Shown here: piece after piece, positions 14,540 to 18,250 of the stretch
How positions within the stretch are numbered: position 1 is the first letter of the stretch
Layout of the letters: each line of letters starts with the position of its first letter
Assembly (NCBI GenBank): GCA_017407995.1
Contig: JAFQVM010000030.1
Location: forward strand, 124,001 to 188,000
Reading direction: 5' to 3'
DNA length: 64,000 nt
Origin: Clostridia bacterium
GTDB lineage: Bacteria; Bacillota; Clostridia; Oscillospirales; Acutalibacteraceae
The notes under the pieces: model-generated
The model's database searches: none
What the model was told of the DNA's origin: nothing
Seen by the model: the letters and a program-made list of their open reading frames with translations, nothing else
Position numbers and translations under genes: made by a program

Positions 14540-15964
14540 TTAGTTTAATAAGTCCTTGAGAATCTCCGTAACAGTTTGTGCGGGAGCTTGTCCCCGCAAC
14601 GCTTTCATGCTCTGACCGATAAGATATTGCAACGCCTGAGTTTTTCCGCTCTTATATTCATTGACACTCTTCTCATTATCTTTAACTACAGTCTCAACAG
14701 TTGCGTATATAGTATCGGTATCAGTTACAAGTCCAAGGTTGTTGTCTTCGACATACTCAGCAGGGTTAATATTCTCCTCAAACACCTTTTCGAAAACCTT
14801 TTTAGCTGTACCTCTGTTTATTTTGCCCTTTTCAACCATGAGTATAATCTTACCGAGCGAATCGAAGTTGAAATCCATGTCCTCCGGTTGCTTTGCGCTG
14901 TCATGCAGAAGCTTTAATAAATCTACCAATATCCAATTAGCAGCTTCCTTTGCATTGCCGCAAACCTCATATGTGCACTCAAACAGCTTTGCCAAATATA
15001 CTGAGCCTGCAATAATTTCCGCATCATGGTCGGTAAGACCTAATTGCGTATAACGCTCAATTTTTTTGTCGGGCAGTTCGGGTATCGCTGCACGTGTCGC
15101 ATCTATCTGCTCTTGGCTTATCACTACAGGCGGAATGTCGGGCTCAGGAAAATATTTATAATCCTGCGCCTCCTCCTTTGAGCGCATGGCATAGCTTTGG
15201 CCCTCACTGTCATCCCATCTGCGGGTTTCCTGTATGACCTTTTCACCCTTTTCCAGCAAGGCTATTTGACGCTCGCTCTCAGCCTTTATTGCTCTTGCAA
15301 TAGCCTTAAAGGAGTTCATATTCTTCATTTCGGTACGCACTCCAAGTTCGAATGAGCCAACAGGACGAACTGACAGATTTATATCAGCCCTGAGAGAGCC
15401 CTCCTGCATCTTGCAGTCCGAAACGCCGATATACTGCAATATCACACGCAGCTTTTCAATGTACTCGACTGCCTCCTCAGCACTTCGCATATCAGGCTGG
15501 CTGACTATCTCCAAAAGAGGAACACCGCATCGGTTATAATCCACGAGTGTATTTATTTCATCCGCATCATGAATAAGTTTTCCAGCATCCTCTTCCATGT
15601 GTATCTCTTTTATGCGTATTTTTTTACAAGTTTCGCTCTTTCCTATTTCAATAAAACCGTCGTGACAAATCGGAAGGTAGAGCTGCGAGATTTGATAAGC
15701 CTTTGGCAAGTCAGGATAAAAATAATTTTTGCGGTCAAACTTGTTGCAACAGGCAACTTCGCAGTTCAATGCCAAACCCGTACGCACAGCAAAGTCCACA
15801 ACTGCACGATTCAGCACAGGCAGAGTGCCGGGCATGCCCAGACAGACCTCGCAAACCTGGGTGTTGGGTTCTCCGCCGAATTCTGTGGTGCAGGAGCAGA
15901 AAATCTTGGTCTTGGTCGCAAGTTCGACGTGAACTTCAAGGCCGACAACTACTTCGTAGTTCAT
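14540..15964 (-). CDS. gatB: Asp-tRNA(Asn)/Glu-tRNA(Gln) amidotransferase subunit B
   Basis: A 474-residue kinase-like subunit of GatCAB, which activates misacylated Glu-tRNA(Gln) and Asp-tRNA(Asn). The first residues YEVVVGLEVHVEL, the zinc-binding Cys set (FCSCTTEFGG...CEVCLGMPG) and the KNMNSF segment are diagnostic. The C-terminal YqeY-like tail (last 130 residues) is present. Its ATG overlaps the gatA stop by 4 nt (ATGA). Confidence 0.97.
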   Translation of the reverse strand: MNYEVVVGLEVHVELATKTKIFCSCTTEFGGEPNTQVCEVCLGMPGTLPVLNRAVVDFAVRTGLALNCEVACCNKFDRKNYFYPDLPKAYQISQLYLPICHDGFIEIGKSETCKKIRIKEIHMEEDAGKLIHDADEINTLVDYNRCGVPLLEIVSQPDMRSAEEAVEYIEKLRVILQYIGVSDCKMQEGSLRADINLSVRPVGSFELGVRTEMKNMNSFKAIARAIKAESERQIALLEKGEKVIQETRRWDDSEGQSYAMRSKEEAQDYKYFPEPDIPPVVISQEQIDATRAAIPELPDKKIERYTQLGLTDHDAEIIAGSVYLAKLFECTYEVCGNAKEAANWILVDLLKLLHDSAKQPEDMDFNFDSLGKIILMVEKGKINRGTAKKVFEKVFEENINPAEYVEDNNLGLVTDTDTIYATVETVVKDNEKSVNEYKSGKTQALQYLIGQSMKALRGQAPAQTVTEILKDLLN

Positions 15965-17430
15965 ACCGTTCCCCCTCCCGCTGTTTTTTCGTGGGCATCA
16001 TTTTTTTGCTCAAAACTGTATACCACTCCCAGCAACTCGCTTTCACAGAACGGACGACCAACAAGCTGCATACCGACAGGCAAGCCATTCGAATCAAAAC
16101 CGCACGGGACCGACACGGCAGGTAAGCCTGCAATATTTGCAGTAACAGTATAAATATCAGCCATATACATTTTTAACGGGTCAGATAAGCTCTCATTGAG
16201 CTTTGGCGCCGTCGTCGGATAAACAGGCCCAAAAACAAAGTCATATTCTTTAAAAGCATCCGAAAAGGCTTTTTGAATAATGTCTTTTGCCTGTAGTGCC
16301 TTTTTATAATACTCATCATAGTATCCCGAACTTAAAACGAAGTTTCCGAGCATAATACGGCGCTTTGTCTCAATACCAAAGGCCTCTGAACGGCTTTTTA
16401 CATAAGTTTCAAAAAGACTTTCAGCACCGTCCGAACGGTAGCCGTACCTTATTCCGTCATAGCGTGACAGATTCGATGACGCTTCGGCACAGGCGATTAT
16501 ATAGTATGTCGGAACAGCATACTTCACTTGTGGAAGCTCAAATTCTTCAACTTCTGCACCGAGTTCTTTCAGCTCATTAACCGCTGCAAGAACTGCAGTT
16601 TTTACATCTTCCTGAAGTCCGCCGCCGAAAAACTCCTTTGGGATGCCAATCCTTTTACCCTGCAAAGAGTATCTTTTTATCTTTTCAAGCTCTAATGGAG
16701 TTGACTCCACTGAGGTGGAATCTCCACTATCATATCCGCCGATAATCCCCATAAGCGCAGCGCAGTCCTCTGCATTTCGACCTATCGGTCCTATTTGGTC
16801 GAGCGATGACGCATATGCTATAAGCCCACGGCGTGAAACTCTGCCGTAGGTCGGTTTTAAACCTGTCACCGAGCACAAAGAACTCGGCTGACGAACAGAA
16901 CCGCCTGTATCAGAGCCGATAGCCAGATGCACCATCCGTGCGGCAACTGCCGCAGCAGCGCCGCCTGAAGAACCACCCGATACACGTGTTGTATCCCACG
17001 GATTTAAAGTAACTCCGAATGCCGAGGTCTCGGTAGTGGAGCCCATAGCAAACTCGTCCATATTTGTTTTGCCGACAACTATAAGCCCTGCTTTTTCTAT
17101 CAAATCAACAATATGTGCATTATATACAGGCACAAAATTTTTGAGCATCTTTGATGCACACGTAGTCTTTATCCCCTTAGTGCAGATGTTATCTTTTACC
17201 GCAATCGGTACACCCGCAAGAGCCGACAGCTCCTCACCTTTGTCTATCTGTGCCTGAACAATATTTGCACGGGCATATGCCTCATCACGGCACAAAGTTA
17301 TAAAACAGTTATATTTTTTATCCTTTTCATCTATCGCATAAAAAACGGCATCGAGCACCTCTTTGACGCTCAAATCTCTGTTTTTTATCTTTCTTGCCGT
17401 CTCAACTGCAGACAATGACAAAATATCCAT
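15961..17430 (-). CDS. gatA: Asp-tRNA(Asn)/Glu-tRNA(Gln) amidotransferase subunit A
   Basis: A 489-residue amidase-signature enzyme that releases ammonia from glutamine for GatB. The Ser-cisSer-Lys triad context is visible: AVKDNI (Lys near 79), VSGGSSGGAAAAVA (about 150-165) and GSDTGGSVRQPSS (about 173-185). Length is standard. It follows gatC by 24 nt. Its presence implies that Gln-tRNA and/or Asn-tRNA are made by transamidation. Confidence 0.97.
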   Translation of the reverse strand: MDILSLSAVETARKIKNRDLSVKEVLDAVFYAIDEKDKKYNCFITLCRDEAYARANIVQAQIDKGEELSALAGVPIAVKDNICTKGIKTTCASKMLKNFVPVYNAHIVDLIEKAGLIVVGKTNMDEFAMGSTTETSAFGVTLNPWDTTRVSGGSSGGAAAAVAARMVHLAIGSDTGGSVRQPSSLCSVTGLKPTYGRVSRRGLIAYASSLDQIGPIGRNAEDCAALMGIIGGYDSGDSTSVESTPLELEKIKRYSLQGKRIGIPKEFFGGGLQEDVKTAVLAAVNELKELGAEVEEFELPQVKYAVPTYYIIACAEASSNLSRYDGIRYGYRSDGAESLFETYVKSRSEAFGIETKRRIMLGNFVLSSGYYDEYYKKALQAKDIIQKAFSDAFKEYDFVFGPVYPTTAPKLNESLSDPLKMYMADIYTVTANIAGLPAVSVPCGFDSNGLPVGMQLVGRPFCESELLGVVYSFEQKNDAHEKTAGGGTV

Positions 17431-17454
17431 TTTAATCCTCTCTTTTGAGCAAAA

Positions 17455-17742
17455 TCATTCAACGGTTTTAGGAACACTGAAAAAACCGTCTTTAACCCGA
17501 GGCGCATTTTTGAGAGCTGTATCTCTGTCCAACGATGGCTTCACCTCATCCTCACGCATAACGTTTTTTGCAGAAAACGATTGTGACAGCGGCTCCGCAT
17601 CCTGCGTGTCAAGTTCGCTCAAAATATCCATATGAGAAACTATATCCTGCAAGTCCGAACAGCACTCCACACGCTCCTCATCAGTTAGTTCTATCCTCGC
17701 AAGCTTTTCAAGATAGGCTACAGTTTCATTGTTTATCTTCAT
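17455..17742 (-). CDS. gatC: Asp-tRNA(Asn)/Glu-tRNA(Gln) amidotransferase subunit C
   Basis: A 95-residue GatC that wraps around GatA. Motifs: YLEKLARIELTDEE near the start and the conserved VMREDEVKPSLDRD near the end. The ATG at 17740-17742 was chosen, with AAAGGG 10 nt upstream; an upstream in-frame TTG is too close to that site. It is the first gene of gatCAB. Confidence 0.93.
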   Translation of the reverse strand: MKINNETVAYLEKLARIELTDEERVECCSDLQDIVSHMDILSELDTQDAEPLSQSFSAKNVMREDEVKPSLDRDTALKNAPRVKDGFFSVPKTVE

Positions 17743-17799
17743 TTGTATCAATCCCTTTCACAGGATTTTATTATAAGTCAAGGCAACTGCCTTTGCAAA

Positions 17800-17828: not shown

Positions 17829-18004
17829 CAAATACCGTAAAATCCAAGCTGTGCTGAAAAGTAAAAATATGTAAAAATTTCTATTATAAAGAAGTCAGTA
17901 ATTTATTAACTGCTTATATTTTTAAAAGCTCGTGACATAATAAATAACGGATTTGACGAAAATCCAAAAAAATCGCCCTGCAAAAGGGCACAGGAGAGAT
18001 AGAA

Positions 18005-18154
18005 ATGGACAACCAGAACAGAAATCAGAACAACAACCAGAACCAGCAGAACAGAAACCAGAACAACAACCAGAATCAGCAGAACAGAAATCAGAACAAC
18101 CAGAACAACAACCAGAATCAGCAGAACAGACGTCAGAACAACAACGAGCAGTAA
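18005..18154 (+). CDS. Tiny Asn/Gln-rich repeat protein
   Basis: A 49-residue open reading frame starting at ATG 18005, with AGGAGA 8 nt upstream. The product is 25 Asn, 16 Gln and 5 Arg, plus single Met, Asp and Glu. It consists of an 11-residue unit NRNQNNNQNQQ at residues 5-15 and 16-26, a version with a 3-residue insertion at 27-40, and a degenerate end NRRQNNNEQ. There is no signal peptide or hydrophobic segment. A hairpin (GCCC/GGGC, 17975-17989) lies just before the ribosome site, and a 14-bp hairpin follows the stop. I do not recognise a family: it is prion-like in composition and basic, and a spore-coat, nucleic-acid-binding or phase-separating role is only a guess. A longer overlapping frame from 17953 lacks a ribosome site and is less likely. 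Confidence 0.7.
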   Translation: MDNQNRNQNNNQNQQNRNQNNNQNQQNRNQNNQNNNQNQQNRRQNNNEQ

Positions 18155-18173
18155 TTACGGTTTCTTAAGGTTC

Positions 18174-18204
18174 ACTCTCACAGCGGAATTTCCGCTGTGA
18201 GAGT
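18174..18204 (+). repeat. Perfect 14-bp inverted repeat downstream of the N/Q-rich gene
   Basis: Arms 18174-18187 and 18191-18204 are perfectly complementary around a 3-nt loop. No T run follows on either strand, so it looks like an mRNA 3'-end stabiliser or a non-classical terminator. Confidence 0.7.
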
Positions 18205-18207
18205 TAC

Positions 18208-18237
18208 ATAAAAAAGCTCCGGAAAAATCCGGAGCTT
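18208..18237 (-). terminator. Intrinsic terminator after the alcohol dehydrogenase gene
   Basis: A 10-bp perfect stem AAGCTCCGGA/TCCGGAGCTT (18214-18223 with 18228-18237), followed on the minus strand by a T run. Confidence 0.85.
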
Positions 18238-18250
18238 AATAAATATATTT

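Follow-up and report, generated by a model that had tools for sequence, protein, structure and literature searches.

A 49-residue asparagine/glutamine protein gene of a Clostridia bacterium and its compositional class with forespore-type promoters

The spores of Bacillus hold a large pool of Asn/Gln (N/Q)-rich gamma-type SASP, and SspE of Bacillus is a small, hydrophilic, N/Q-rich protein with repeats and a sigma-G gene of its own. A cleavage motif for the spore protease GPR is a feature of the gamma-type SASP; the alpha/beta-type SASP, for their part, bind DNA through a conserved fold. The consensus for sigma-G promoters in B. subtilis is GHATR-N17/18-CATNNTA. In Clostridioides difficile the sigma-F and sigma-G consensuses are very alike, according to an excerpt of PMC3789822. 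The same species has GerG (CD0311), which the available portion of PMC5241399 describes as a protein with Asn-rich repeats that gels in vitro, is controlled by sigma-E in the mother cell, has ~30% N besides abundant M and P, and is reported from C. difficile only. It also has CDR20291_0316, which we compare by its name, "spore coat assembly asparagine-rich protein", and which tables in the accessible parts of PMC5311115 and PMC5864091 assign to SigK and to SigE/SigF. A class of tiny proteins made almost wholly of N and Q is not named in the excerpt available of a survey of bacterial prion-like proteins (PMC4606120), nor is one described in the titles or abstract openings of the papers that searches of an open-access library brought up. 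Such a protein is encoded in the 64,000-nucleotide stretch of DNA analyzed here, which we call the window.

The window gene and its surroundings

The N/Q-rich ORF runs on the plus strand from ATG to TAA at 18005..18154, and its translation agrees with an earlier note on this DNA, which had described a 49-residue protein with ~84% N+Q behind an ATG with a proper ribosome site. The protein has 25 N and 16 Q among its 49 residues, together with 5 R and 2 acidic residues, and uses only N, Q and R besides M, D and E; with 41/49 residues N or Q it is an N/Q-rich low-complexity chain of the prion-like kind. The ribosome site, AGGAGAG (17992..17998, plus strand), resembles those of the same-genus copies and lies 6 bases ahead of the ATG, and the repeats that the note had pointed out correspond to a tandem DNA repeat of period 33 with a 94% match. 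This repeat leaves open an overlapping 71-aa frame with a TTG start (17953-18168). Among the stop-to-stop frames of at least 25 residues in the 64 kb there is no second one with a 24-residue stretch in which at least 14 residues are N or Q, and a search of its own genome with the window protein recovered this copy alone.

Forty-five same-genus genomes, the window's own among them, were searched at the DNA level and yielded 24 loci besides the window, of which 11 have a short N/Q-rich ORF (35-48 aa) with a ribosome site; the remaining loci, where no such ORF could be made out clearly, were excluded, L217 being a weak twelfth. All 11 homologues use the N/Q frame from the ATG, not that of the 71-aa ORF, and share the C-terminal motif N-[RNKS]-E-N-[FY]. 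In a protein-guided alignment of the 11, in which pairs are non-independent, codon differences at positions 1/2/3 number 370/151/769, a bias toward position 3 that is the pattern expected for a translated frame. The earlier note had proposed frame conservation and a comparison of substitutions as checks, and its view of a real small protein in a spore former is supported by the frame kept in the 11 homologues, by many similar tiny ORFs in other genomes, by the lack of any family model that matches and by an alpha/beta-SASP gene on the window's contig. The safest statement is that the window ORF is a real small gene, not a one-off repeat, and belongs to a compositional class of genes with forespore-type promoters.

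Upstream, TTTTGTCAATAA[AG]TA is common to 11/11 same-genus copies, as read from the alignment. It is followed by CATAATA in nine and TATAATA in two, at the same place as the window's candidate -10, a CATAATA of the sigma-G type (CATNNTA; 17936..17942, plus strand). The window's candidate -35, TTATA (17914..17918, plus strand), has one mismatch to GHATR and is weak alone. After the -10, all 11 same-genus copies (L201-L210, L215) have a TGAAC..GTTCA dyad, perfect in nine and with one mismatch in two, which may be either an operator or a leader hairpin. The CATAATA of the window copy is followed by a dyad unlike TGAAC..GTTCA in sequence, namely a first leader hairpin directly 3' of the -10 (17949..17965, plus strand), and a second leader hairpin stands ahead of the ribosome site (17975..17989, plus strand). 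Past the stop codon there is a strong hairpin without a T run (18175..18203, plus strand) and then another (18215..18237), assigned to neither strand, which is terminator-like on the minus strand, where the Fe-ADH gene ends, and is possibly used from both sides. The hairpins that had been noted on both flanks are thus matched by fold z scores of -4.05 for RNA 17949-18007 and -10.46 for RNA 18152-18250. Rfam gave three matches only, all far under their gathering scores.

The N/Q gene stands alone between a divergent gatC and a convergent Fe-ADH gene, both on the minus strand, and these neighbors, which had been named before, matched PF02686 and PF00465, respectively. The suggested synteny with them did not extend to the genus, as 9 of 10 scanned same-genus loci adjoin another gene, which we take to be flavodoxin/ferredoxin-like. 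Over 95 loci no conserved partner gene was found; neighbor genes recur within lineages only, e.g., a presumably MurD-like gene near 18 of the 95, in one lineage. The adjacent amidotransferase genes are a curiosity of their own. GatB (window 14540-17751) has a match in 12/36 same-genus genomes at 42-48% identity, with up to 53% in other families, and GatC-like matches occur in 3/24 same-genus genomes, 22-26% identical and inside long frames, so that this genus seems, from the sequences at hand, either to lack these genes or to have unusually divergent forms of them. The sparse GatB matches raised the question of contig mis-binning, which was set aside: the contig's SASP gene has a genus-typical upstream region, and SpoIVB (PF05580), encoded in the window, is also present in 19/36 same-genus genomes.

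N/Q mini-proteins in other genomes and their promoters

Among the best DNA matches in 391 genomes of the taxonomic class, 25 of 29 loci carry a tiny N/Q-rich ORF; one of these (L044) runs into a contig edge and two (L020, L025) have weak ribosome sites. Of the remainder, L019 and L035 are DNA repeats with a likely Glu/Pro-rich coding frame instead of an N/Q one, and L032 and L038 have no tiny N/Q ORF. A pattern combining a ribosome site with N/Q codons, run over a named genome collection, gave at least 119 loci. Among the matches listed, an ORF of 24-80 aa with at least 45% N+Q is present at 83 of the 119, which is not a frequency, since the pattern favors such genes and relatives recur. Going by record titles, all of these 83 are from Bacillota, and 15 of the other 36 loci lie outside that phylum. 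The pattern also caught long ORFs with a short N/K/Q-rich start (L060, L062, L073, L086, L089, L103, L109, L129, L146), which we presume to be FtsH-like. Dropping L057, with its short upstream DNA, left 82 of the 83, and removing similar upstream regions left 64. N makes up 52% of these 64 proteins, Q 15.5% and K 10%, and hydrophobic residues are almost absent; chains in the class are 25-69 aa long, net charge is +2 to +6 in 62/64, and the C-terminal residue is R or K in 45/64. A stem of at least 8 within 70 nt past the stop follows 31/64 of the N/Q ORFs, as compared to 129/927 long ORFs. Eighteen of the 64 have a cysteine among their last four residues (NCR, NCK, NCD), e.g., L046, L076, L083, L115, L125 and L138.

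The window protein is unmatched in Pfam, NCBIfam, PHROGs and PDB sequences, as are 17 of 18 other N/Q proteins in Pfam and NCBIfam; the exception, a Peribacillus ORF (L104) with 32% N+Q and sub-cutoff matches only, was left out of the class. When the 49-aa sequence was searched as protein against 40 genomes, it hit its own genome only, probably owing to low-complexity handling, whereas the DNA search worked. A strict pattern of 24 bases had hits in 19 of the 391 genomes, several hits being AAT/AAA repeats also found by a reversed control, and its counts were therefore not used for co-occurrence. SpoIVA is present in 24/25 genomes with a verified ORF versus 255/366 others (Fisher p 0.002), or, with the window's own genome added to the carriers, 24/26 versus 255/365 (p 0.008), in a statistic that ignores relatedness and counts carriers missed by the DNA search among the others. 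In G163, the one verified-ORF genome without SpoIVA, there is a SASP gene; the window's own draft genome, 86% complete, yielded no SpoIVA. Several same-genus genomes contain repeated 5' fragments of alpha/beta-SASP genes, each with the upstream region and ~27 codons, after which unrelated sequence abruptly takes over at one and the same codon; they lie kilobases apart on one contig (L262, L271, L274 and L278 on one contig of G043; also L270, L273, L277 and, in the own genome, L249 on C25); these could be a product of duplication or insertion.

The sigma-G consensus was chosen after CATAATA had been noticed in the window and two homologues, and promoters were scored with the B. subtilis form. 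The first set of 22 loci (the window and 21 of the 25 verified ones, leaving out the near-duplicates L025, L041 and L045 and the contig-edge L044) contains the cases that prompted this choice; a score of at least 9/10 was reached by 11/22 versus 2.4 expected (Markov shuffles over 150 nt, with spacers of 16-18). The second set, the 64 N/Q loci, is independent; here 35/64 reached this score versus 3.5 +- 1.9 expected (120 nt), and the excess recurs by larger group: 18/29 (2.1 expected), 6/6 (0.2) and 10/27 (1.1), with 1/2 in the Paenibacillus group. As negative controls, the long ORFs with the pattern gave 0/17 versus 1.0 expected, and other genes at these loci with a GGAGG site gave 18/192 versus 10.5. 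The positive control, alpha/beta-SASP genes, gave 10/26 versus 1.6 expected, the 26 scored out of 28 loci having been chosen by match coordinates, without L239 (contig edge) and L249 (fragment). A matrix derived from 13 of these 26 promoters, which were selected for a full GHATR -35 and include three close relatives, separated the 64 N/Q loci from the 192 other genes with an AUC of 0.935 (p about 1e-25) and placed 53/64 over the 5% line and 23/64 over the 1% line, with the -10 in most cases ~30 nt upstream of the ATG.

In the second set there is no excess of sigma-H sites, sigma-K sites at 7/8 or better number 5/64 versus 5.3 expected, and sigma-A sites are hardly raised (7 at 10/12 versus 4.5 +- 2.0). 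Sigma-F sites (8 at 11/12 versus 0.8 expected) and sigma-E sites (12/64 versus 4.1 at 10/12, none at 11/12) are in excess, as the overlapping consensuses would produce. In the first set sigma-K (7/22 versus 3.3) and sigma-F (9 versus 4.2) are somewhat raised. The window promoter itself scores 9/10 over -35 and -10, which ~6% of shuffles reach, and 9.84 with the matrix against a 5% line of 9.91, a line exceeded by 1 of 10 scored same-genus copies. The -35 of the genus is not GHATR in its N/Q genes, and its SASP genes are preceded by a conserved region of another kind, which as read lacks GHATR-17/18-CATNNTA. Because of the borderline score and this non-GHATR -35, the sigma assignment of the window copy leans on the class, and control of this copy by sigma-E is a possible alternative. 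As a class, the N/Q genes have forespore promoters of the sigma-G type, whereas the window copy alone is borderline. The N/Q proteins form a compositional class whose shared trait may be composition plus promoter, and N/Q chains could have arisen repeatedly rather than as one homologous family.

A candidate role in the spore core

The reading that we prefer, with moderate confidence, is that the window protein is a sigma-G-controlled, disordered, basic protein of the spore core that works like a gamma-type SASP while standing outside that family. Late in sporulation, forespore RNA polymerase with sigma-G, or the closely similar sigma-F, would transcribe the stand-alone N/Q gene, giving a short monocistronic mRNA whose ribosome site is good; on this reading the window copy would be expressed in the forespore. 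The product would be a small, hydrophilic, mildly basic chain, presumably disordered to judge by its composition, that would be packed in the spore core. Its role would most likely be that of a gamma-type SASP, i.e., an expendable bulk protein yielding nitrogen or amino acids on germination, and/or a filler that immobilizes the core; this reserve or matrix role, drawn by analogy, is the least certain part. More tentatively still, the Clostridia may possess unrecognized forespore proteins of near-pure Asn/Gln, selected on composition and promoter rather than on sequence, which replace the gamma-type SASP as nitrogen bank and core-solidifying filler and have been missed by standard annotation as short and low-complexity. 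The gamma-SASP model PF04259 is over its cutoff in 0/391 genomes of the class, with 26 weak sub-cutoff matches, and in 1/14 control genomes; a widespread set of N/Q mini-proteins with SASP-type promoters is a direct candidate for that role in Clostridia. If this is true, they would be a natural example of selection acting on composition, and the class illustrates how short low-complexity genes are lost from annotation and masked searches.

Three other functions rank below this one: a gel or matrix former, then a nucleic-acid binder, then a coat protein. The first, a self-assembling forespore chain whose gel, glass or condensate would solidify the core and protect proteins on drying or heating, we regard as unlikely. 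The composition is nearly pure N/Q, and the Asn-rich repeats of GerG gel in vitro; against this, GerG is sigma-E controlled and contains much more M and P, the repeats being dispensable for germination (PMC5241399, in the portion available), and short chains (25-69 aa) whose positive charges are spread out may remain soluble. A nucleic-acid binder of the core, attaching to DNA or RNA through spaced Arg and Lys like a minor alpha/beta-type SASP, is more doubtful. The net charge and basic C termini of the class, and the 5 R versus 2 acidic residues of the window protein, are consistent with such binding, but the chains have low charge density and no nucleic-acid binding motif, and PF00269 is unmatched. 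The leading idea of the earlier note, a role in spore coat assembly and hence a mother-cell coat or exosporium protein, fares worse and seems improbable: the annotation of C. difficile does include Asn-rich coat-type proteins (PMC5311115, PMC5864091, in the parts accessible), and the window's ATATT-15-CATAATA could be taken for a sigma-E site, if a poor one (9/12), but the class promoters are sigma-G/sigma-F-like, there is no sigma-K excess in the larger set, and none of its sigma-E sites reaches 11/12. An untranslated or functionless repeat is very improbable, since the tandem DNA repeat, the second open frame and the likely Glu/Pro-rich matches L019 and L035 that would suit it are opposed by what the 11 homologues have in common, namely their start, their ribosome site, their end and a bias toward position 3, and by the promoter and 3' hairpin signals.

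Comparison with known spore and prion-like proteins

The preferred reading, a spore-core protein working like a gamma-type SASP, places the N/Q class closest to that family (PF04259), whose members are likewise small, N/Q-rich and almost without hydrophobic residues, and the likeness extends to a sigma-G-type promoter at the class level, with the window borderline. The N/Q proteins differ in their smaller length and their much more extreme N+Q content. The window protein and 18 other N/Q proteins are unmatched by PF04259, and a motif like the GPR protease site is absent from the window protein (by eye) and from 62/64 others (in a loose scan that hit two Paenibacillus ORFs only), so that membership in the gamma-type SASP fails. 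Two N/Q-rich Paenibacillus ORFs with NAEF motifs (L065, L087), unmatched in Pfam and NCBIfam, presumably resemble gamma-type SASP; their promoters score 9/10 and 8/10, both with CATACTA, and it is possible that they bridge the two groups. The alpha/beta-type SASP (PF00269) likewise come from small genes of the forespore that share this type of promoter, and the window protein and the 18 others do not match their model. GerG has N/M/P repeats where the window protein has N, Q and R besides M, D and E, and its sigma-E control contrasts with a class in which sigma-E sites are only mildly in excess. Prion-like N/Q domains, such as that of Clostridium botulinum Rho (PMC4703818), are similarly N/Q-rich and of low complexity, but that domain is part of a larger protein, whereas the window protein consists of its N/Q chain from end to end.
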